Virus record (IMG/VR): IMGVR_UViG_3300031707_000202
Span: 1-22,258 of that record
Strand: one strand, 5' to 3'
DNA length: 22,258 nucleotides
From: a virus
The notes under the pieces are model-generated. The model made no database searches. It worked only from the letters and a program-made list of their open reading frames with translations, and was not told where the DNA came from. Positions within the stretch are counted from its first letter, which is position 1. Each line of letters begins with the position of its first letter. The position numbers and the translations under genes are program-made. Positions 1,483-17,087 of the stretch are shown here, piece after piece.

Positions 1483-1491
1483 GGAGGAGTG

Positions 1492-3666
1492 ATGGAATAT
1501 CAAGAGTTTTTGGAATCAAAACGACACAAGAATCAAGATGCCGGATTCAATGTACCAGAACATTCCATCTCACCTAAACTCTATGACTTCCAAAAAGCGA
1601 TCGTGCGGTGGGCGCTCCGAAAGGGACGAGCTGCTATCTTCGCGGATTGCGGACTCGGGAAGACGCCGATGCAATTAGAATGGGCGAGACTCATTGGTGG
1701 GACTGCTCTTATTGTGGCGCCTCTCTGTGTGGCTGAACAGACCATCCGGGAAGGTAATAAATTCGACATCCCGGTGTCTTTTGTCAGATCCAAGGCAGAA
1801 ATACGGCCGGGAATAAACATCACCAATTACGAGATGGTGGAACACTTCGATGGGACCGTTGACTCAATTGTGCTGGACGAATCCAGCATCCTAAAGAGTC
1901 TCGCTGGAAAGACGAGGAGGAAACTCATAGATATTTTTGGCGATACGCCATTTCGTCTCTGCTGTACGGCTACCCCATGCCCAAACGATATCGCCGAACT
2001 CGGGAATCATGCAGAGTTTCTTGGGATCTGTACCCACGCAGAGATGCTTGCGACATTCTTCGTCCATGATGGGAACGAGTGGCGCATGAAGGGCCATGCC
2101 GAGGATGCCTTCTACCGGTGGCTCGCATCTTGGGCTATGTGCATCAATCGGCCCGAGGATATCGGATTCGATGGGTCCGCCTTCGTCCTACCGGAACTTC
2201 GCATCCATCACGTGAGCGTTCCGTGCAAAATCGAACGTGAGGATGAACTCTTCTTCGGCGGACTCCATGGCGTTCAGGATCGTTCAGCAGTTCGGAAGGC
2301 AACGGTTGACGCAAGAATCAATGAGGTTGCCAGGATCGTTTCAGGCTGTAATGGCAATCAGTGTATCGCATGGTGCGGTCTCAATACCGAGGCCGACAAA
2401 CTCAACTCGATGCTCACGAATAGTAGAAACGTCCAGGGATCTGATACAAGCGAGAAAAAGAAAGAGGCGATTCTTTCTTTCCTGGATGATGGATATAAAA
2501 CCCTTGTCACGAAGCCGCGTATAGCCGGGTTCGGAATGAATTTCCAGAATGCCAGCAAGATGGTTTTTGTTGGACTCGGAGATTCTTACGAACAATATTA
2601 CCAGTGCATCAGAAGGTCATGGAGATTCGGCCAGACGAAGGATGTCGATGCCTATGTGGTCCTCTCGGATGCCGAGGAAGGAATCTTTCGCAATGTTCTT
2701 CGAAAAGAGGCGGAGGCAAAGAAGATGAGCAGAGAACTTGTTTCTCGTATGGAGGAATATGAGAAGGAAGAGATTGGGAAAGGACGGATCGAAAACGTCA
2801 TGCCGTCGATACGCAGGGCAGGAGACGGTTGGGAGATGTGGCGTGGTGACTGTGTGGAAGTGACGGAGAAGATGGAAGAGAATTCCATTGACTTCTCGGT
2901 TTATTCTCCTCCTTTCATTTCGCTCTACACATATACGGCATCGGCTCTGGACATCGGGAATAGCAAAACAAACGAAGAGTTTTTTGATCACTATGCCTTT
3001 TTGATTCGCAACCTATTGAAGGTGACGAAGCCGGGCCGGAACACAGCGGTTCATGTTTCCCAGGTTCCCGCTATGCTTGTGCGGGATGGGTATATCGGAC
3101 TCAAGGATTTTCGAGGCATGGTGGTTAGGGGATACGAGAAGGCTGGATGGATCTATCACGGAGAGATTGTGATTCAGAAGAATCCGCAGAGCCAGGCAGT
3201 AAGAACCAAGAGCAAGAGCCTCCTGTTTGTCCAGTTAAAGCGGGACTCCTCCTGGCTCCGTCCAGGACTTGCCGATTACGTCTGTGTTTTTCGAAAGCCT
3301 GGGGAGAACAAAATTCCGATTCATCCCAAAGACATCAGCAACGATGATTGGATCAAGTGGGCGCATCCGATCTGGACCGACATCCGGGAGACGCATACTC
3401 TTTCTGCGGCAGAAGCCAGAACAGAGAAGGATGAACGTCATGTCTGCCCGCTTCAGTTGGATGTGATCGACCGATGCGTCAGACTGTGGTCGAATCCAGG
3501 AGAACTTGTGCTTTCCCCATTCGCAGGGATTGGAAGTGAAGGATATCAGGCGATCCTGCGCGGGCGTAGGTTTGTCGGGATTGAACTGAAACCAGAATAC
3601 TTTGAGACGGCGTGTCTCAATCTTCAGAGGGCGGAGAACGAAATGAAGAAGGAGACTCTATTTTGA
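1492..3666 (+). CDS. SNF2-family helicase fused to a beta-class DNA methyltransferase
   Basis: A 724-residue fusion. ATG 1492 follows a GAGGAGG SD; a GTG at 1489 is the alternative. The N-terminal half is an SF2/SNF2-type motor: Q-motif-like YDFQ at 31-34, Walker A DCGLGKT at 52-58, Walker B LDESS at 128-132, motif III TATP at 159-162, and motif VI QCIRRSWRFGQ at 371-381. The C-terminal third is a DNA methyltransferase with catalytic motif IV SPPF at 472-475 and the AdoMet-binding SPFAGIG loop at 675-681, then the GIEL strand. The order IV before I marks the beta class. SPP[FY] is most often N4-cytosine but can be N6-adenine. The region between (about 490-660) would recognise the target. No nuclease motif was seen. 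Likely roles are modification of phage DNA against restriction, or remodelling coupled to methylation. Confidence 0.85.
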   Translation: MEYQEFLESKRHKNQDAGFNVPEHSISPKLYDFQKAIVRWALRKGRAAIFADCGLGKTPMQLEWARLIGGTALIVAPLCVAEQTIREGNKFDIPVSFVRSKAEIRPGINITNYEMVEHFDGTVDSIVLDESSILKSLAGKTRRKLIDIFGDTPFRLCCTATPCPNDIAELGNHAEFLGICTHAEMLATFFVHDGNEWRMKGHAEDAFYRWLASWAMCINRPEDIGFDGSAFVLPELRIHHVSVPCKIEREDELFFGGLHGVQDRSAVRKATVDARINEVARIVSGCNGNQCIAWCGLNTEADKLNSMLTNSRNVQGSDTSEKKKEAILSFLDDGYKTLVTKPRIAGFGMNFQNASKMVFVGLGDSYEQYYQCIRRSWRFGQTKDVDAYVVLSDAEEGIFRNVLRKEAEAKKMSRELVSRMEEYEKEEIGKGRIENVMPSIRRAGDGWEMWRGDCVEVTEKMEENSIDFSVYSPPFISLYTYTASALDIGNSKTNEEFFDHYAFLIRNLLKVTKPGRNTAVHVSQVPAMLVRDGYIGLKDFRGMVVRGYEKAGWIYHGEIVIQKNPQSQAVRTKSKSLLFVQLKRDSSWLRPGLADYVCVFRKPGENKIPIHPKDISNDDWIKWAHPIWTDIRETHTLSAAEARTEKDERHVCPLQLDVIDRCVRLWSNPGELVLSPFAGIGSEGYQAILRGRRFVGIELKPEYFETACLNLQRAENEMKKETLF

Positions 3667-3998
3667 AACTCGCATTTATCTCCGGTCCTTATCGTGCAGA
3701 AACAAGGCATCAGGTTGTGCAGAACATCATGCGAGCCGAACAGATTGCGAAGAAATACTGGAAGCTCGGGTACGCCGTAATCTGCCCGCACAAAAATACG
3801 AGTCTGTTCGATGGGATTCTCCCCGATGAAGTATGGCTCGAAGGGGATCTTGAGATCCTTTCCAGGTGCGACGTGATCGTGATGATGGATACATGGCGGG
3901 AGTCGGTTGGGGCTACCGAAGAACTGAAGTTCGCAAGAGATTTGGGAATGGAAATCATATTCGATGAGGAAGAAGGGAGAAACCATGACCTCATATGA
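3663..3998 (+). CDS. DUF4406-like protein (nucleoside deoxyribosyltransferase fold)
   Basis: A 111-residue protein. The chosen start is TTG 3663, which overlaps the previous stop by four bases (TTGA) and has AAGGAG at 3649-3654. The peptide then begins directly at the first beta strand, LKLAFISGPYRA. An ISGPYR N-terminal loop, a central VICPHKNTSLFDG segment, an LEILSRCDVIVMM strand and an ESVGATEEL helix match the DUF4406 / nucleoside 2-deoxyribosyltransferase-like fold, which binds nucleotides or nucleosides. In the transferases the Glu in a helix like SVGATEE lies near the sugar, but catalysis here is unproven. It could act in nucleotide metabolism or sense a nucleotide derivative. It is translationally coupled to the helicase-methyltransferase. 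Confidence 0.65.
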   Translation: MKLAFISGPYRAETRHQVVQNIMRAEQIAKKYWKLGYAVICPHKNTSLFDGILPDEVWLEGDLEILSRCDVIVMMDTWRESVGATEELKFARDLGMEIIFDEEEGRNHDLI

Positions 3999-4272
3999 CG
4001 ACAAGCGCGAGGCCATTTCCAAAATCCTCGACGCCGCTCGGGAGATGATCGAGCAGCACCTGGATGAACGAAGCCCCGATGTGGCGCAGGCCATGGGGCT
4101 CTCGGAAGATGGGACTGTGGCTCTCGGAATCACGGTCAAGATCGAGAATGCCGGCGCCGGCCAGTTCACCCTCGACGTCGGCTTCCGGCTAGTGAAGGAG
4201 CGGATCCGGGACAGTAAGACGCGGATTGTCAGCACGCAACCGCTGCTTATCCAAGAGGAGACCAGGTCATGA
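3985..4272 (+). CDS. Hypothetical protein, paralogue of the C-terminal domain at 6885-7148
   Basis: A 95-residue protein starting at ATG 3985 after GGGAGA; it overlaps the DUF4406-like gene by 14 bases. The N-terminal half is helical and acidic (ILDAAREMIEQHLDERSPDV). The second half alternates hydrophobic residues as a small beta sheet would (GTVALGITVKIENAG, then FTLDVGFRLVKERI). From residue 11 onward it is very similar, also at DNA level, to the C-terminal part of the gene ending at 7148. I recognise no family. It lacks the zinc ribbon that precedes the domain in the second copy. Its stop overlaps the next start as ATGA, so the two are probably co-translated. The next gene is itself duplicated, which suggests they function or move as a pair. 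Confidence 0.75.
   Translation: MTSYDDKREAISKILDAAREMIEQHLDERSPDVAQAMGLSEDGTVALGITVKIENAGAGQFTLDVGFRLVKERIRDSKTRIVSTQPLLIQEETRS
4015..4272 (+). repeat. Duplicated segment, copy 1 (partner 6885-7148)
   Basis: The DNA here is closely similar to 6885-7148, with long identical stretches near GGCCATGGGGCTCTCGGAAG and the only obvious indel being 6 bases near the 3' end. Many differences are at third codon positions, which indicates that the protein has stayed under selection. Confidence 0.85.
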
Positions 4273-4664
4273 AGAAGGACGATGCCGTCCTTTGTCGCAA
4301 ATGCCAGACCTGGATCGGGACTGCACGCTATTCCGGCAGGGATCTCTGCTCAGACTGCGGAAAGGCTCGGAACAGGGCATACGATGCGTTACGGAAAGCC
4401 CGTGGATACTACAGGGATCGTGCAAAGGAACTCAGCAATCGTAGGTTCCCAGGCGATATCCGCAGGAAGGTAAGCCGTAAGCATCAGCCTCTAACCGAGG
4501 AGGAGATCCAGGAGGGAGCGAAGATCGGGAGAGGGTTGTCGATCCTAGATCTCCCCGTCTGGGACATGGTTGACCTTGCGACGTTCGGGCCAGAGGCGTG
4601 GAAGATGCCAACGGAAAGAGATGAGGAGGATAGCGATGAAGGTGCTACAACGGGTTATCTGTAA
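4269..4664 (+). CDS. Zinc-ribbon hypothetical protein, paralogue of the gene at 7838
   Basis: A 131-residue protein starting at ATG 4269 in an ATGA overlap with the upstream stop, preceded by GAGGAG. An N-terminal zinc ribbon uses Cys9, Cys12, Cys27 and Cys30. A strongly basic region with many Arg and Lys follows (about 31-75), then [17 protein letters not shown] and a [15 protein letters not shown] motif. The layout, including W15-I16-G17-T18 after the first Cys pair, is repeated in the protein at 7838-8221. Zinc ribbon plus basic stretch suggests nucleic-acid binding, possibly HNH-like remnants or regulation, but no catalytic motif was found. Function unknown. Confidence 0.75.
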
Positions 4665-5271
4665 AGCACTTGACGAAAACAGGATGGCCTACAAGGTTAT
4701 GGACCACAATTATCTGAGTAGTAACGGGGGCTCGTTCGACTGGCGGCCCTATCTACCATCCGAGACCAGTCCTGGAAAGTGGCTACCGGAGATAGACGAC
4801 ACGGAACTGTGCTCCAGTGGGTATCACGTCACCAAGGATCCGGCAATCTGGATCGGGAATATCGTCTATCTCTGTGAGACCAGGGAACCCGTGTGCCTGA
4901 CCGACAAAACCGTCCATGCAACTCTCAGGTTGCTCGTTCGCACGCGGCCCGAGGACTGCATTGATCCGCGAGTCTATGTGCGGGTGATGTACCCGTTTCT
5001 CACCAGGGCCAATCTCACCGGGGCCAATCTCTCCGGGGCCGATCTCTCCGGTGCCGATCTCTCCGGTGCCGATCTCTCCGGGGCCAATCTCATCGGTGCC
5101 GATCTCTCCGGGGCCAATCTCTCCGGGGCCTATCTCATCGGTGCCGATCTCTCCGGGGTCTATCTCATCGGTGCCGATCTCTCCGGGGCCTATCTCTCCG
5201 GGGCCAACCGGACTCAGGACGATATACCAGGATGGAAAATCAACAAAGATGGAAGATTGGAAAAGGCATAG
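4636..5271 (+). CDS. Pentapeptide-repeat protein
   Basis: A 211-residue protein. ATG 4636 is preferred because GAGGA lies just upstream; it overlaps the previous gene by 29 bases. An N-terminal domain (about 1-105) contains [17 protein letters not shown], resembling the CxxGFHxxxxP signature of small phage domains often found before pentapeptide repeats (DUF7666-like; tentative). Residues 125-189 are 13 uninterrupted pentapeptides of the form A(N/D/Y)L(S/I/T)G, with one V replacing A, predicting about three coils of a right-handed beta helix. A short tail follows. Some pentapeptide proteins (Qnr, MfpA) mimic DNA and bind gyrase, but that is not shown here and the helix is short. The 15-bp DNA repeats are prone to expansion and contraction. 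Confidence 0.85.
5008..5202 (+). repeat. 13 tandem 15-bp units encoding pentapeptide repeats
   Basis: Thirteen consecutive 15-bp units of the form GCC-RAT/TAT-CTC-TCC/ATC-GGG/GGT occur without interruption; one unit begins GTC. Neighbouring units are almost identical, which indicates recent expansion by slippage or unequal recombination. Confidence 0.95.
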
Positions 5272-5865: not shown

Positions 5866-6366
5866 ATGAGGGACATAATTGCTGAGATAAAAAGTAAATG
5901 TGAACAATATTGGAATGAGAGGAACATATGTGATGAGGAAATTCATGCAATTTTGGAATTCATTCATGTTAGGTGTTCTGCCCTAGATCAGGAGAGAGAT
6001 AACTCTAAGAAGGAGGCCGAGCACGAGGAAGTCTTTGAGGCTCTTTGCGAAGAAATCGCAGAGCTGCATACAGAGATCGATGATCTGAATAAGGATAGGG
6101 CCTCCCGGTGTGCCTGCCGATTCGACCTTGACTCGATTCCTGCGGCAAAGGTGGAGGCCTCAAGATTCATGCACGGGGATTGTTACTCTATCTGCGCTTA
6201 CCACCAGCATAGGGAGGCATGGCACGCCAAGGAGATAGCCTCCCTCGGAAATGAAGAATACTTCGACCTGGAGCATAAGTGCGAAGAGGCAGTGAGGCGA
6301 ATCTCTAAGCAACTGGAGGAGGTGAAAGAATGGGAGGAATGGTATGCAAACGGAGGGAAGACATGA
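5866..6366 (+). CDS. Hypothetical coiled-coil protein with Cys/His residues
   Basis: A 166-residue protein starting at ATG 5866 after AAGGAGGAG. It is strongly acidic and helical. Coiled-coil segments lie at about 40-80 (ALCEEIAELHTEIDDLNKDR) and near the C-terminus (CEEAVRRISKQLEEVKEWEEW). Between them, CRFDL, HGDCYSICAYHQH may coordinate a metal. The first ~130 bases are AT-richer than the surroundings. The stop overlaps the next ATG (ATGA). It resembles the loosely conserved ead/Ea22-type early proteins of phages only in style; no family is claimed. Confidence 0.6.
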   Translation: MRDIIAEIKSKCEQYWNERNICDEEIHAILEFIHVRCSALDQERDNSKKEAEHEEVFEALCEEIAELHTEIDDLNKDRASRCACRFDLDSIPAAKVEASRFMHGDCYSICAYHQHREAWHAKEIASLGNEEYFDLEHKCEEAVRRISKQLEEVKEWEEWYANGGKT

Positions 6367-7148
6367 TCGGTGATATGACAAAGCATGTCCTGCATAATTA
6401 TGTCCCATGGCGCAGCCAAAATTCATTGTGGCATGAGGCCCTAGCCGACCTTGAAGCGTTGCAGGCGATGGTGATCGTGTCCTGCAATGATGACAGATGC
6501 GGGTGGGTAGGATGTCTCGGGGAGACTCACAGTCCAAAACACGCTCCCGAGAAAATCTTATGCCCGCAATGTAGCGAGACCACCGAGACGGTAACCCCGG
6601 TATGGTTCGCAGACCTCCGGAGGCGCATTGCCGAGCTGGAGGCTCAACTTCGGGCCGGCCGGATTCAAATATCTGATCCGTTACAACAGATCGACACAAC
6701 GAATGAACGAGATCGGAATCCTCAGCAATCGTATGACGGACGACACGGAGGAGAGAAAGCCATGACCACAACCATCCACGTTGACATGGACAAACCGTGC
6801 GCCAAATGCGGGCAGAACGGGGCAACACAGAGCGGCCTCTGCCTCGTTTGCGCGACGAAAATGGGTCGGGTACTCCGGGACGACATCAGCAAGGTCCTCG
6901 ACGCAGCCCGCGAACTCATCGAGCAGCATCTCGAGGAGCGCAGTCCCGACGTAGCCCAGGCCATGGGGCTCTCGGAAGATGGGACCGTGGCTCTCGGCAT
7001 CACGGTCAAGATTGAGAATGCCGGAGGTGGACAGTTTACCCTCGACGTCGGCTTCCGGCTGGTGAAGGAACGGATCCGGGACAATAAGACGCGGATCGTC
7101 AGCACGCAGCCGACTTTGCTGCAAAACCAAGAGGAGACCAGAACATGA
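6363..7148 (+). CDS. Two-part zinc-ribbon protein; C-terminal half is a paralogue of the 3985 gene, with an internal start at 6762
   Basis: One open frame of 261 residues from ATG 6363 (ATGA overlap, GGAGGGAAG upstream). Residues 1-100 carry a zinc ribbon (Cys41, Cys46, Cys67, Cys70; Cys51 nearby) and a short coil RRIAELEAQL. Residues 101-133 look like a linker. From Met134 a second unit begins: zinc ribbon Cys146/149/160/163, then the same alpha-beta domain as the gene at 3985. ATG 6762 has its own strong SD, GGAGGAG at 6747-6753 with 8-nt spacing. Two products may therefore be made, or two former genes have fused by loss of a stop codon. If read as two genes, the second is 6762-7148 (128 residues). 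Function unknown; zinc binding is likely. Confidence 0.65.
   Translation: MIGDMTKHVLHNYVPWRSQNSLWHEALADLEALQAMVIVSCNDDRCGWVGCLGETHSPKHAPEKILCPQCSETTETVTPVWFADLRRRIAELEAQLRAGRIQISDPLQQIDTTNERDRNPQQSYDGRHGGEKAMTTTIHVDMDKPCAKCGQNGATQSGLCLVCATKMGRVLRDDISKVLDAARELIEQHLEERSPDVAQAMGLSEDGTVALGITVKIENAGGGQFTLDVGFRLVKERIRDNKTRIVSTQPTLLQNQEETRT
6885..7148 (+). repeat. Duplicated segment, copy 2 (partner 4015-4272)
   Basis: Second copy of the duplicated coding segment, here joined to an upstream zinc ribbon and larger frame. It carries two extra residues near the C-terminus compared with copy 1. Both copies are followed by an ATGA overlap into the next gene. Confidence 0.85.
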
Positions 7149-7594
7149 AAAGCGAAATGAAAGTGCGTATCGGTGTTTGGGCGGCTTCGATCCTGATGCT
7201 GCTTTACGCGATCATGGTCACCTGCGGGTGGATAACAAACGTCTTCGCCGCGGACACGGACTATCAGTTCGTGACGCCGGGGGCGGCGTTCACCATGGCC
7301 AGCACGGGGGCCACGGGGGCGACCGGATATGAATGGGCCAGACAACCATCGGGAGGCGCATGGACTACCTGGGACGGGTCCGCCGTGACAGCCACGGACA
7401 CGCTGGCCGCGAAGGCGGCGGCCCGGTACCGGCTCCGGGGATACCTGACCGTCCCAGGCTGGATCTGCGATGCTGCGGGCTGCACGGAAACCGGGACGCG
7501 GAACGTATACGGGGAATTTTCAGACCCAAGCGACTGGAATATAGCGGTCACGATCCCGGCGTGTGGCAAGGCATCCAAACCCGCAAAGCAATAA
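7145..7594 (+). CDS. Secreted or membrane-anchored hypothetical protein
   Basis: A 149-residue protein starting at ATG 7145 (ATGA overlap). Basic residues at the N-terminus are followed by a hydrophobic stretch (about 9-35, IGVWAASILMLLYAIMVTCG) and VFAAD. This reads as a signal peptide with cleavage after VFA, or as an uncleaved anchor. The mature part is Gly/Thr/Ala-rich and beta-like (PGAAFTMASTGATGATGYEW), with two Cys in CDAAGC and one near the end. A small Ig-like or fibronectin-like fold is possible. Phage proteins exported from the cytoplasm can act in superinfection exclusion or lysis, but neither is shown. It is inserted between members of the duplicated gene families. Confidence 0.65.
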   Translation: MKSEMKVRIGVWAASILMLLYAIMVTCGWITNVFAADTDYQFVTPGAAFTMASTGATGATGYEWARQPSGGAWTTWDGSAVTATDTLAAKAAARYRLRGYLTVPGWICDAAGCTETGTRNVYGEFSDPSDWNIAVTIPACGKASKPAKQ

Positions 7595-10672: not shown

Positions 10673-10891
10673 ATGCCTTCTGCAACCATCATCGATCTGC
10701 GCGACTACATGGAGCAGGGAGTTCCCGCTCCTTGCCCAAAAAGCACGGAACAAAAGTACGTCAAGCCCGCTCCTCTCTTCTGGACCTGCGCGTGCGGATG
10801 CCACGTCTTTCTCGTCTCGTCCGACGGCATTCTTTGCCCTGATTGCGGATCGTACCAACCTTTTGTAACCCACGGAGGAATCGACCGATGA
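10673..10891 (+). CDS. Small zinc-ribbon protein
   Basis: A 72-residue protein starting at ATG 10673, two bases after the TerL stop. The core FWTCACGCHVFLVSSDGILCPDCG is a classic short zinc ribbon (CxC then CxxC), flanked by flexible ends. No clear SD precedes it; it probably relies on coupling to TerL. Similar small zinc proteins near terminase genes occur in phages, but their role is unclear. It overlaps the following start by four bases. Confidence 0.7.
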   Translation: MPSATIIDLRDYMEQGVPAPCPKSTEQKYVKPAPLFWTCACGCHVFLVSSDGILCPDCGSYQPFVTHGGIDR

Positions 10892-11832
10892 AAAAGACCG
10901 TTCTCGCGATGGTACTCGTTGCCTGCGCCGGCCTACTGATGGCCTTCCCGATCCACGGGCCGCAAGAAATCACCGACATTTGGACCTTCCGGGTGGCGCC
11001 GATCTTCGGATCTGGAGTGAGCTTTCCCAACATTGCGCTCACCGGGGATCCCACGCTGGCCTCCGATGCAACAGGAGGGAACGCTGGAGCGAGGAGCGAA
11101 TTCCAGGGGCTTCTGAAGGTCGATCTCGTTCCGTTCGGGACGATGACCAACGGCACCACGGAGACGACCTCCTACATTGACGACACTCCGACTGGGGAAT
11201 GGGCGCCAGTGGATGCTGACGTTGTGGAGAGCGCGAGCACCACGATCTATCGGATCGGCACCACGTCGTACAAGGCAGCCTTTGCCGCTACTGCTGCGAC
11301 GGGCGACGGCGCCAGCAACACCATCACGTCAGACAACTTGGAAGCAGATGAATCGATCGGCTTTTGGATCTACTCGGATACGAATCTCACAGCGGCTTGG
11401 CTGACCTTGGTGTTGACGGATAACGGCGGCGCCAGGACCTTCAATTTCCCGGCTGTATCCCCGAATGTCTGGACCTGGGTTGAGATCGATATCACTTCCC
11501 TTGCGGCAGGTACCGGAGATCAGATCACTGCGGTGGCCGTGCTGCTTTCTTCTGCGGGAGCTACCGGGCTTGGGGCTTTCAACATCTACCTGGACGGTAT
11601 GTGGAAATGGGACGCCGCGGACGAGCTCGCCCTGGGCCAGAATCTCATCACGGGTGGAGTGCTCAGGGTTCTGACTTGGGTAAAGGCCGATGCCGGTACT
11701 CAGGCTCATGATATGGCGGCGCTCGCGGAAAATACGGACTGGTTCCCGAATTACCAGGCAAGCACTGATGTGATTGTCCAGATCACGGACCAGAGCACCA
11801 AGGCCGGAATGGCTCTCGTCGCCTACCAGTAA
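10888..11832 (+). CDS. Beta-rich protein with N-terminal signal sequence, candidate surface or decoration protein
   Basis: A 314-residue protein. ATG 10888 follows GGAGGA with good spacing. The N-terminus MKKTVLAMVLVACAGLLMAFP looks like a signal peptide; LVAC could be a lipobox (Cys13), or cleavage could follow LMA. Residues about 100-260 resemble a jelly-roll or carbohydrate-binding-like sandwich: ESIGFWIYSDTNLTAAWLTL, NVWTWVEIDITSLA, AFNIYLDGMWKWD. Such domains occur in phage fibres and head decorations. Its location between TerL and portal suggests a virion role, whereas the signal sequence argues for export. Both are inference. A possible alternative is a phage-encoded receptor-masking lipoprotein. 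Confidence 0.65.
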   Translation: MKKTVLAMVLVACAGLLMAFPIHGPQEITDIWTFRVAPIFGSGVSFPNIALTGDPTLASDATGGNAGARSEFQGLLKVDLVPFGTMTNGTTETTSYIDDTPTGEWAPVDADVVESASTTIYRIGTTSYKAAFAATAATGDGASNTITSDNLEADESIGFWIYSDTNLTAAWLTLVLTDNGGARTFNFPAVSPNVWTWVEIDITSLAAGTGDQITAVAVLLSSAGATGLGAFNIYLDGMWKWDAADELALGQNLITGGVLRVLTWVKADAGTQAHDMAALAENTDWFPNYQASTDVIVQITDQSTKAGMALVAYQ

Positions 11833-12706: not shown

Positions 12707-14557
12707 ATGGGAATGGTTTACCCTGGCCAGACCACCACATCCAAGCAGGAGCGCAACGGCCTCGCCTCGCTCGTTGATGGCCGGCTGGAGCGATATTCAT
12801 CCGATCGGTCTTCCTGGGAAAGCGAGTGGCGTCTGGATTACGACTCCTGGCAGCGGGTCTACTCCGAGAAGTGGAAGGCCATGGAGGGCGTGGACTGGCG
12901 CTCGAACATCTTCGTGGGGATCACCGATCTCAAGGTGAGAACGATCGTCGCCACCTTGAACGATGCCCTGGGCCAGAAATTCCCGTTCGATGTGCAGCCT
13001 ACCCCGGAGCCCGACCAGATGCCGGGCAGTTACCAGATCAAGCCTGATGAAATGGCGTGGCGCAGCCGGAACATGCGCCGACTCATCGAGGACCAGCTCG
13101 TCGAGATGCGGGCCGACCGGGAGCTGAAATCCGCAATCCTAGAACTCGTGGTCTATGGCAATGTCGTGATCAAATGCCCGATTCTCGTGCCTTACAAGAG
13201 ACGGCGTTACATGACCGAGCTTCAGGGGGCGATCGATGGACAGCCCTACTACAGCTTCAACCGCAAGGTAACCCAGGGCCACCGGCTCGCCTTCCGGCAC
13301 ATCGATTTGTTCAGCTTCTTCTGTGATGCCGACGCAACGAGTCCCCAGGAGGGCGAGGGATGCGTTCACAAGCAGCTCTTCAGCGCCGGAGAATTCCTTC
13401 GGTACACGAAATCTTCCCGTGGGTTTATCCCGGAGGAGATCAAGCGGGTCCTCGAAGAACTCACGAAGGATGGGCGGATATCTACCACCACCGACGAAGG
13501 CCCGACAAAGGACGATGTGACCCGCAGGCGGCCGATCGAGGTGAAGGAGTACTGGGGTCTCGTGACCAGGAGAGAGATCGAGGAAGGAGGCGGAGACTTC
13601 GACATCATCGTGAACGAATACCGGAAGTTCGATCCGGAGCAGCTCGACGATTACGAAGAGCTCGAGGTGGTGCTCGTGGTCGCCAACGGGCACCTGATCA
13701 AGGTGGCGCCAAACTACCTGGACGGGCAGAGGCCCTTCCTGCTGGGCCGCTACGATATCGTACCGAACCGGATCTTCGGTTGGGGCGTGCCGAAGCGGAT
13801 GCGGGACGCGCAGGCCATGCTCAACAGCTCGGTCCGGGGCTTCATCGACAACATGGCGGTTTCCGCAAACGTCATGGGTGCGATGGATCCGGAAGCTTTC
13901 ATGCCCGGGACCACGAACAAGTTCGCTCCAGGCGAGATGAAGATGATGAAGAAAGGGGCGGATGTCGCAAAAGCCCTAAAGGCGATCGTCTTCCCGAACA
14001 TCGGGGCATCGCTCCTCCCCATGATCGAACTCTTCGAGCGGTACGCCTCCGAGCAATCCATTCCGAATCTGCTTTCCGGGCAGAGCGAGCAGTCGCAGCC
14101 GAAGACCGCCTTCGGCCTCTCGAAGCTATGGGAGGGATCCCACAAACAGATGACCGAACCCCTGCGGAACATTGATGACGATCTGATTGAGCCGATCGTG
14201 ACCGAGTTCTACCACTGGAACATGAGCGATCCGACGGTCCCGGACCAGTACAAGGGGGATTGCCAGTGCCAGGCAACGGGGTACTCCAGCTTTCAGGACA
14301 AGACAGTCAAGGGCGAGCGGATCCGGTTTCTCCTGCAGCTCGCTCTTGATTCGCAGGTGATGGGGGCAGCGATCAAGATCCTGCCCCTGGTCAAGGACCT
14401 GGTGAAGACCTTGGACGAAGATCCTGACCTGCGCGTGGCCTCTGAAGAGGAATTCAACGCCAAGATGATGGAGATGCAGCAAGCGAGCATCCAGGCAGCG
14501 AGTCTCAAGGCAAGCCCGAAACCTTCAAGACCTACGGGGATGAACCGTGCTGCGTGA
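12707..14557 (+). CDS. Portal protein
   Basis: A 616-residue protein, the size of podovirus portals. ATG 12707 is used (12713 is an alternative). The N-terminal helices include RWR-rich stretches and SNIFVGITDLKVRTIVATLNDAL (about 63-85). A QPT/PDQ segment follows, then ELVVYGNVVIKCPI near 145-158, RHIDLFSFFCDADAT near 200-214, and the crown/stem-side segment YDIVPNRIFGWGVPKRMRDAQAMLNSS near 348-374. The VYGN, YD.VPN.IFG.G..K.M.D.Q...N pattern is typical of P22/podovirus-type portals. A C-terminal barrel-like helix ends in Met/Gln-rich sequence. Twelve copies would form the DNA channel at one capsid vertex and dock TerL. Confidence 0.92.
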   Translation: MGMVYPGQTTTSKQERNGLASLVDGRLERYSSDRSSWESEWRLDYDSWQRVYSEKWKAMEGVDWRSNIFVGITDLKVRTIVATLNDALGQKFPFDVQPTPEPDQMPGSYQIKPDEMAWRSRNMRRLIEDQLVEMRADRELKSAILELVVYGNVVIKCPILVPYKRRRYMTELQGAIDGQPYYSFNRKVTQGHRLAFRHIDLFSFFCDADATSPQEGEGCVHKQLFSAGEFLRYTKSSRGFIPEEIKRVLEELTKDGRISTTTDEGPTKDDVTRRRPIEVKEYWGLVTRREIEEGGGDFDIIVNEYRKFDPEQLDDYEELEVVLVVANGHLIKVAPNYLDGQRPFLLGRYDIVPNRIFGWGVPKRMRDAQAMLNSSVRGFIDNMAVSANVMGAMDPEAFMPGTTNKFAPGEMKMMKKGADVAKALKAIVFPNIGASLLPMIELFERYASEQSIPNLLSGQSEQSQPKTAFGLSKLWEGSHKQMTEPLRNIDDDLIEPIVTEFYHWNMSDPTVPDQYKGDCQCQATGYSSFQDKTVKGERIRFLLQLALDSQVMGAAIKILPLVKDLVKTLDEDPDLRVASEEEFNAKMMEMQQASIQAASLKASPKPSRPTGMNRAA

Positions 14558-14975: not shown

Positions 14976-15971
14976 ATGGGCAAAGCAGCAGGATCCCAGG
15001 GCGAGATCGTGAAATCCAAGGACCCGAACGAAACCCCTGAAGACGACTTCGATGCGGCCTGGGAGTTCAATGCCCCGGCACCCGCAAAAGAAGCCGGAAC
15101 CGGGGACAAGGGGACCCCTTCGGGTGAGAAACCTGTAGAGGCCAAACCCGGAGACGGGATGGGCTCTCAGGAGGCCAAGGGAGCCTTGGAAGGGCAAGAG
15201 GACACCCCTGCGAAGAAAGAGGGCGCAGACGCGACCGTAGCGTCTCAGACAGGCCAAATCGCCCAGGGTGGCGAAGGAGCTACAGCGGGCCAGGGCGCAG
15301 CAACCACCATGGAGGATGAGCCATACAAGAAGCGCTACGAGGACCTCCGGGGCCTGGTCGATCGTGCGACGTCAAAGAACAGCGACCTGGAGAGGCGTCT
15401 GGCAGCCATAGAGGCTGAAAACAGGAAGCTCCTGGAGAAGGAAGCGGCCAACCGGGATCCCCTTGAGGACCTCGACCTCGACGAAGAGGAACGGGAACTC
15501 CTCACGGAAGATCCAAGGCAAACCAACATCCTTCGGAAGCTCGTTCGCAAGCTGAAGCCTGCAAACGGCGGAGCGGACACGGGCCGTCCCCGAGAGGGGG
15601 CCACGCCCATGCCCGAAGCCGAGCAGGAACTTGCACGCCTTCGGTTTCAGAATGGGGTCATCCGGAAGCACGCCAACTTCGAGGAGCTGGCGAAGGAACC
15701 CGAGTTCATCCCGTGGGTGAAGGAACAGTCTCAAGAGATCCAGCGGAAGGCCCTCTCTCAGGACCCGGTGGACGGCATCTCGGTCTTGGATGCCTATGTA
15801 GACCACAAAACAAGAAAGGCCAAGGACTCTCACGATCTGGACCTCTCCGGTAAGCAGAAGCTCAGGGAGGAACAAGCTCGTGGGAGTCTGAGAGGCGGAA
15901 AAGCTTCAGGCGGTAAACCAGCGGACGAAAAAGACATGAACGATTACGGGGCCGGTTGGGCAGAGGCTTGA
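14976..15971 (+). CDS. Scaffolding protein
   Basis: A 331-residue hydrophilic protein starting at ATG 14976 after GGGGAG. Residues 1-110 are low-complexity and rich in Ala, Gly, Glu, Pro and Lys. A long coiled coil (about 112-160) follows: YKKRYEDLRGLVDRATSKNSDLERRLAAIEAENRKLLEKEA. An acidic LEDLDLDEEERELLTED block comes next, then further helices, and a basic C-terminus. Position immediately before the major capsid gene, high charge and coiled coil are the usual marks of scaffolding proteins. It would form the inner core around which the procapsid assembles and then leave. No protease domain is seen. Confidence 0.85.
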   Translation: MGKAAGSQGEIVKSKDPNETPEDDFDAAWEFNAPAPAKEAGTGDKGTPSGEKPVEAKPGDGMGSQEAKGALEGQEDTPAKKEGADATVASQTGQIAQGGEGATAGQGAATTMEDEPYKKRYEDLRGLVDRATSKNSDLERRLAAIEAENRKLLEKEAANRDPLEDLDLDEEERELLTEDPRQTNILRKLVRKLKPANGGADTGRPREGATPMPEAEQELARLRFQNGVIRKHANFEELAKEPEFIPWVKEQSQEIQRKALSQDPVDGISVLDAYVDHKTRKAKDSHDLDLSGKQKLREEQARGSLRGGKASGGKPADEKDMNDYGAGWAEA

Positions 15972-16004
15972 TCTCTCTCGGCCGGACCATGGAGGAGTAA
16001 CGAG

Positions 16005-17087
16005 ATGATGAATCAAAGAATCCGAAGGACTTTTGTTCTGTGGGCGACCCTTGTCTGCGCCATTCTCGGTAACGTAGCCGGGACGGTGGGCACGACCGAG
16101 TACGGAGACATCAAGCCTCGGACTGCCGGGTGGATTTGCAAGAAAATGCTGCTTGTCGGTAAGCCGCTCCTGGTTTCGGACAAGTTCGGACAGATTATCA
16201 CGATGCCTAAAAACGAAAGCGAAAACATCGTACTCCGGAGATACACAAAGCTGCCAATTACGGGAGCCAAGGTGCCCATGGCCGAAGGAGTGACTCCGGA
16301 CGCGACGCAACTCACCAAGGAAGACGTGGTGGCTACGCTCCTGCAATACGGAGCCTGGGTGCAGATCTCGGACAAGATCGAGGACCTGCACGATGACCCC
16401 ATCCTGAACATCGCCTCGGAGCGACTCGGGGAGCAGGCGGCGGAGACCATCGACTCGATTCGGTTCGACTACCTGGTCGCTGGGACATCCGTGCAGTACG
16501 CAAACGGAGCCCTCCGAACGTCCGTCAATACGGTCATCGACCGGGGGGACATCCGGATTGCGCAGAGAACCCTTGCCAGGAACCTCTCCAAGTTCATCAC
16601 CCGCTTGATCTCACCGAGCCCCGACTTCGGGACTGCGGCTGTCGAGGCCGGGTACTGGGCCGTGACCCACGTGGACCTGGAACACGACATCAGGAGCATG
16701 AGCGGTTTCATCAATGCCAAAGACTACCCACGCGGCGGAGCGATCGAAGGTGAGATCGGCGCCGTTGATAAGGTGCGGTTCGTGACGACAACCCAAATGC
16801 CGTACTGGACGGGTGGCGGCGCTGCAGGCGGAACGAATGTGCTGGAGACCGGAGGGATCGCCGACGTGTACCCGGTTCTCATCTTCGCTCGGGACGCCTA
16901 CGCGATCATTCCCCTGGCCGGAAAGAACTCGCTCAAAGTCATGGTTCTGAATCCGAACGTACCCAGGGGCGGGGATCCCCTCGGACAGCGCGGTTCTGCG
17001 GCTTGGAAGACCATGCAAACCGTCTGCATCTTGAATGATTCGTGGATGACCCGGATCGAGACGGCTTGCACCAGCGTTCCGACCTAA
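16005..17087 (+). CDS. Major capsid protein, N4-gp56 type
   Basis: A 360-residue protein. ATG 16005 has GGAGGAG about 10 nt upstream. Family signatures are TTEYGDIKPRTAGW near 29-42, LLVGKPLLVSDKFGQ, LRRYTKLPI, MAEGVTPDATQLTKEDV near 99-115, YGAWVQISDKIEDLHDDPIL, GEQAAETIDSIRFDYLVAGT, and a C-terminal GQRGSAAWKTM. These match the N4-gp56 family of HK97-fold shells. Residues 1-27 are unusual: MMNQRIRRTFVLWATLVCAI followed by LGNVAG looks like a signal sequence. Family members normally begin near the TTEYGD motif. A GTG at 16086 would give MGTTEYGD, but its SD is weak. The leader may be removed, or two forms may be made. Confidence 0.92.
   Translation: MMNQRIRRTFVLWATLVCAILGNVAGTVGTTEYGDIKPRTAGWICKKMLLVGKPLLVSDKFGQIITMPKNESENIVLRRYTKLPITGAKVPMAEGVTPDATQLTKEDVVATLLQYGAWVQISDKIEDLHDDPILNIASERLGEQAAETIDSIRFDYLVAGTSVQYANGALRTSVNTVIDRGDIRIAQRTLARNLSKFITRLISPSPDFGTAAVEAGYWAVTHVDLEHDIRSMSGFINAKDYPRGGAIEGEIGAVDKVRFVTTTQMPYWTGGGAAGGTNVLETGGIADVYPVLIFARDAYAIIPLAGKNSLKVMVLNPNVPRGGDPLGQRGSAAWKTMQTVCILNDSWMTRIETACTSVPT

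Follow-up and report, generated by a model that had tools for sequence, protein, structure and literature searches.

A signal-peptide-like leader before an N4-gp56 family major capsid protein, known from a single viral contig

The capsid gene and its neighbours

The window (the whole stretch of viral DNA analysed here, 22,258 nt) carries a head module in which a portal gene, a gene in scaffold position and a capsid gene follow each other in the order typical of N4-gp56 relatives:

12707..14557, + strand: portal / head-tail connector protein (phrog_332, phrog_1216)
14976..15971, + strand: scaffold-position gene, 331 aa, immediately preceding the capsid gene (match to phrog_13678, a family of unknown function, E 3e-12)
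16005..17087, + strand: major capsid protein of the N4-gp56 family, 360 aa with its leader (TIGR04387, phrog_1357, AlphaFold)
16095..17066, + strand: conserved N4-gp56 core of the capsid protein, residues 31-354 (TIGR04387 profile match)

Profile searches and structure prediction clearly identify the product of 16005-17087 as an otherwise ordinary N4-gp56 major capsid protein with a predicted HK97-type fold like that of N4. The TIGR04387 match is full-length, aligning positions 1-323 of the 324-position profile with residues 31-354 (E 4.9e-89; 298.8 bits at a curated cut-off of 60 bits), and phrog_1357 (major head protein) matches with an E-value of 1.2e-57. An AlphaFold model built with 68 relatives reaches a mean pLDDT of 85, its top PDB matches being the capsid proteins of N4, B2, DEV and Moo19 (E ~1e-20 to 1e-14, TM 0.51-0.62); residues 1-30 are modelled outside the fold at a pLDDT near 44. 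Since the TIGR04387 match begins only at residue 31, no part of the leader falls within the family domain. The ORF is as described in an earlier note on this DNA, which had placed a leader of about 27 residues before the usual TTEYGDI start of N4-gp56 capsid proteins. N4-gp56 relatives have their N-terminus a few residues before YGDI, a position which is no criterion of the TIGR04387 family model; here, the 27-residue leader is found instead.

The gene directly upstream may have a scaffold role, as its position suggests, and its product displays C-terminal similarity to that of the gene preceding the capsid gene in two related loci (L104 and L132). In 163 related loci, too, a portal homologue precedes the capsid gene.

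Make-up of the leader and choice of the start codon

The features around the capsid start are the following:

15963..15977, + strand: 5' arm of an inverted repeat, overlapping the stop codon of the upstream gene (14 of 15 positions complementary)
15991..15997, + strand: Shine-Dalgarno (SD) sequence GGAGGAG of ATG 16005 (anti-SD pairing -9.3 kcal/mol)
16005..16085, + strand: 27-codon signal-peptide-like leader with n-region MMNQRIRRT, hydrophobic core FVLWATLVCAIL and c-region GNVAG
16086..16088, + strand: GTG codon (codon 28, V28), aligned with the family initiator and without usable SD (alignment, anti-SD pairing)
16105..16119, + strand: corresponding 3' arm, within codons 34-39 of the capsid gene

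Capsid residues 1-27 (MMNQRIRRTFVLWATLVCAILGNVAGT) are directly followed by VGTTEYGDI. The first 26 of them (MMNQRIRRTFVLWATLVCAILGNVAG) combine a charge of +3 ahead of the core with a 12-residue hydrophobic run and a subsequent VAG, the mean Kyte-Doolittle hydropathy of the core FVLWATLVCAIL amounting to 2.63. The leader therefore possesses the layout of a Sec signal, i.e., a basic n-region, a hydrophobic core and, at a V-A-G (V-x-G) site, small residues in positions -3 and -1. A simple, home-made rule (not SignalP) was applied to comparable sequences, demanding (i) an n-region charge of at least +2, (ii) a 12-mer of mean hydropathy of at least 1.8 without polar or charged residues, and (iii) a small-residue site thereafter. 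Within the window, 7 of the 1002 start codons with 30 open codons pass this rule; they fall at five independent places, among them the starts of three actual genes (7145, 10888 and 16005). Of the 549 SD-led ORFs in the related loci that are 150 aa or longer, just 3 satisfy the rule, as do 3 (bases shuffled) or 371 (residues shuffled) of 20000 shuffled versions of the leader. Since shuffled sequences, window starts and related-locus ORFs so rarely pass, the signal-like make-up, which occurs at about 0.5% of comparable starts, is unlikely to be a product of chance.

In its synonymous codon usage the leader fits this phage poorly, ranking in the lowest 6% of in-frame windows and being typical of out-of-frame ones (26 codons, hence little power), unlike the leaders of the genes at 10888 and 7145. 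A break in composition at the leader was not seen. Twin-arginine (Tat) signals carry the motif polar-R-R-x-hydrophobic-hydrophobic in the n-region; by eye, RRTFV of the leader fits RRx plus two hydrophobic residues, the residue before RR being Ile, which is not polar. The leader lacks a lipoprotein lipobox (small residue before Cys), C18 being preceded by Val (TLVC). Neither a longer copy of the leader within the window nor a meaningful match to it among phages (tblastn of residues 1-43, blastn of 15960-16110) was found.

Initiation signals differ markedly between the two in-frame start codons. ATG 16005 is preceded at a distance of 8 nt by GGAGGA, with anti-SD pairing stronger than at about 95% of random window positions. 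The best pairing available to GTG 16086 (-3.1 kcal/mol, at 13-nt spacing) is weaker than the random median of -3.8 kcal/mol, and the region of this codon lies in a helix of the predicted mRNA fold. From the end of the upstream gene (15971), the distance is 33 nt to ATG 16005 and 114 nt to GTG 16086; the corresponding gap measures 40 nt or less in 172 of 197 relatives, and the relatives' spacers are short, at about 20 nt. Due to the strong SD, as opposed to the weak one at GTG, and the family-typical gap of 33 nt, these sequence signals favour ATG 16005 over GTG 16086 as start, and the leader is probably translated. This agrees with the earlier note, which had deduced probable translation from the strong SD; the GTG that it offered as a second start appears of little practical use, considering the near absence of an SD and the helix in which its region is predicted to reside.

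The leader is enclosed by the inverted repeat 15963-15977/16105-16119, the sole pair of its kind with a loop of up to 250 nt in the window. The duplex of the repeat regions (-45 kcal/mol) is more stable than those of all 1000 window pairs of the same geometry and of all 211 relatives, and this inverted repeat was seen in none of the relatives. In the predicted fold, the repeat closes a domain comprising the SD, ATG 16005 and the leader, the GTG region being paired. Compared to shuffled sequences, the leader region alone folds no better (z 0.14), and together with the flanking arms only mildly better (z -1.48). The window yielded no Rfam match. With the upstream gene's stop codon lying inside the 5' arm, translation of this gene could open the repeat, pointing to a possible translational coupling hairpin. 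The repeat could also mark the event of leader insertion, i.e., represent an insertion scar.

Relatives and origin of the leader

A total of 212 related loci was compared (a few fetched twice from one contig), with alignment-based scans of IMG/VR and a scan of bacterial and archaeal genomes contributing about 200 more loci of up to 50% identity. The chosen initiator aligns exactly with V28 in 132 of the 212 loci and falls within -6 to +8 residues of it in 205. Six loci (L067, L123-L126 and L007) carry polar N-terminal extensions of 19-23 residues, and a further one is a distant hit that aligned wrongly. A basic plus hydrophobic leader occurs in none of the 212. The nearest annotated phages, i.e., Pseudoalteromonas phage vB_Pun_Y3, Stenotrophomonas phage StenR_269 and Pseudomonas phage Rollin (38-41% capsid identity), have capsid proteins starting 2-5 residues before the YGD region. 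Single queries of IMG/VR with the capsid protein, the portal and the product of gene 19057 retrieved no closer relatives sharing the leader, and each of the three relatives from the bacterial/archaeal genome scan is devoid of it. The leader is known from one contig only, the virus record of 22,258 bases containing no other.

N4-gp56 capsid proteins (TIGR04387/phrog_1357), comprising N4 gp56 and DEV gp77 of the Schitoviridae as well as environmental relatives, share with the present protein the core (38-50% identity to the nearer ones), the HK97-type fold and the surrounding gene order, differing in their start around the V28 position. The leader is unusual and in all probability genuine, although seen in one contig only; apart from it, the protein is an ordinary representative of a well-known family. 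Since the relatives' initiators align at V28 and none of the relatives has a hydrophobic leader, the leader was probably acquired recently, in this lineage alone, and sits immediately ahead of the ancestral start. The exact alignment of GTG 16086 with the family initiator codon suggests this codon to be a fossil of that start. The earlier note had named an acquired fragment as one of several possibilities and proposed to check homologues for a shared leader; the absence of a hydrophobic leader from all 212 loci supports this possibility. Its expectation of what would speak against the leader applies by half: the homologues' starts do lie where the GTG is found here, but in the present gene the initiation signals have moved upstream.

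Two other leads on the origin were discarded. Apparent N-terminal matches in five loci (L210, L178, L103, L120 and L202) cross stop codons, the true starts being canonical. Derivation from a small gene in the spacer between scaffold-position and capsid genes was rejected, as relatives with long gaps contain no signal-like ORF there (translations judged by eye). Literature searches joining N4-gp56, major capsid protein and signal peptide returned only StenR_269, where the signal peptide is that of the endolysin, and those on twin-arginine together with major capsid protein returned nothing relevant.

A signal-like leader is also carried by the 314-aa product of gene 10888-11832 (+), located between the terminase and portal genes. 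Queries from its start or from two codons upstream gave no Pfam, NCBIfam or PHROG match. Ten relatives were retrieved from IMG/VR (L215-L224; ~41-50% identity). All ten start with a leader that is signal-like but varies in sequence from one to another, and several adjoin portal, scaffold-position or capsid-like genes (judged by gene order and size). Gene 10888 and its relatives thus possibly form a family of exported proteins encoded in phage head modules. The gene resembles the capsid gene in providing a head-module protein with a signal-like leader; however, its leader is common to all ten relatives whereas that of the capsid protein is private, and the two are dissimilar in sequence.

Possible roles of the leader and further genes of the window

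The explanation put forward here, to which we give somewhat less than even credence, is a capsid protein translated from ATG 16005 that bears the leader as a recent private addition and thereby binds the inner membrane, either as nascent protein or via its N-terminus in the prohead. Initiation at ATG 16005 would place the leader, which is physically built like a cleavable export signal, on every copy of the capsid protein. The nascent protein, or the N-terminus carried by the prohead, would then attach to the host inner membrane from the cytoplasmic side. Family membership, the strong start signal, the absence of the leader from relatives and its signal-like composition beyond chance are shown by the sequence, whereas translation in the cell, membrane contact and the fate of the leader are inferred. 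Two fates of the leader may be envisaged: it could escape cleavage and lengthen the N-arm by a lipid-seeking segment, or the secretion machinery could engage a small fraction of the molecules while the bulk of the capsid protein completes folding and assembly in the cytoplasm. It is in this compartment that tailed phages assemble and package, and their capsid proteins are generally assumed to remain there. Since efficient export would remove capsid protein from this compartment, a fully working signal should be harmful. Most likely, a retained leader would confer inner-membrane affinity on the capsid protein; signal peptidase is less likely to cleave those molecules that form the shell, as full export would be self-defeating. 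Also counting against this explanation are the leader's synonymous codon usage, which is not phage-like, and its restriction to a single carrier contig.

Alternatively, start signals may have moved upstream into the spacer, yielding a neutral extension which forms an uncleaved disordered or hydrophobic arm inside the capsid and has no role at the membrane. Such an origin is rather unlikely, yet several points speak for it: the private extensions of 19-23 residues in L067, L123-L126 and L007 indicate that the N-terminus tolerates additions, the leader's codon usage resembles that of non-coding frames, and AlphaFold predicts no fold in it. The relatives' extensions, however, are polar, a succession of basic, hydrophobic and small residues being found at only about 0.5% of comparable starts. 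Moreover, with relatives' spacers of ~20 nt, 81 nt had to be gained and not merely read.

Translation from GTG 16086 as in the homologues, which would reduce the leader to an untranslated or rarely translated 5' region, is decidedly less probable. While the exact alignment with the family initiator in 132 related loci and the non-coding-looking codon usage of the leader are consistent with it, this start would operate without a usable SD, although that of ATG 16005 is among the phage's good ones, from a region paired in the predicted mRNA fold and across a gap (114 nt) unusual for the family. Similarly improbable, if marginally more so, is a far-reaching form of membrane involvement, in which a host-type signal would route the HK97-fold capsid protein to the inner membrane and proheads would start or coat there, possibly together with the gene 10888 protein.

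Formation of two products is very doubtful. A membrane-bound leader form from ATG 16005, e.g., nucleating proheads, and a leaderless, shell-building form from GTG 16086 would reconcile the signal with cytoplasmic assembly, and both codons are in frame, with the GTG exactly at the family start; yet the short form would need to be the abundant one despite weak initiation signals, and no evidence of an internal ribosome binding site was found. An assembly or sequencing artefact, i.e., an indel or chimeric join fusing a separate short hydrophobic ORF to the capsid gene, would agree with the leader's occurrence in one metagenomic contig only, with stops shortly before the GTG in the other two frames (one indel would produce a separate ORF of ~21-25 residues ending just before a coupled start) and with a flanking inverted repeat able to mislead polymerases or assemblers, but it is very unlikely in view of the expected order of the upstream portal and scaffold-position genes, the normal spacing to ATG 16005 and the lack of a composition break at the leader.

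Among comparable systems, a cleavable signal peptide is known from the major coat protein pVIII of filamentous phages; this protein, however, is unrelated and does not possess the HK97 fold, being a small coat protein that inserts into the membrane and belongs to a secreted ssDNA phage. Comparable in principle is also the engineered phage T7::PhoE, in which capsid protein gp10A is fused to the PhoE signal peptide: its burst size stayed normal, and its capsids were reported to carry phospholipid (PMC5157022). Such a fusion in a tailed phage need not, therefore, lower the burst size; that of T7 is man-made, whereas the present leader is natural and N-terminal. The capsid leader would then be a natural counterpart of the engineered capsid, and a natural export-like capsid start would render membrane contact in HK97-type assembly directly testable. 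Were the leader neutral, it would still illustrate how freely the N-arm accepts additions.

Further genes of the window were noted as separate observations. The 149-aa protein encoded at 7145-7594 (+), which matches nothing in Pfam or NCBIfam, has an N-terminus resembling a signal or a membrane anchor. ORF 3964-4272 and the C-terminal part of ORF 6330-7148 share a nearly identical stretch of ~60 residues, running from KILDAAREMIEQHL or KVLDAARELIEQHL to VKERIRD, i.e., a duplicated module. The protein encoded at 4570-5271 (+) displays a C-terminal tract resembling pentapeptide repeats, and 1489-3666 (+) encodes, on this phage contig, an SNF2-type helicase fused to an N6/N4 DNA methylase (Pfam).
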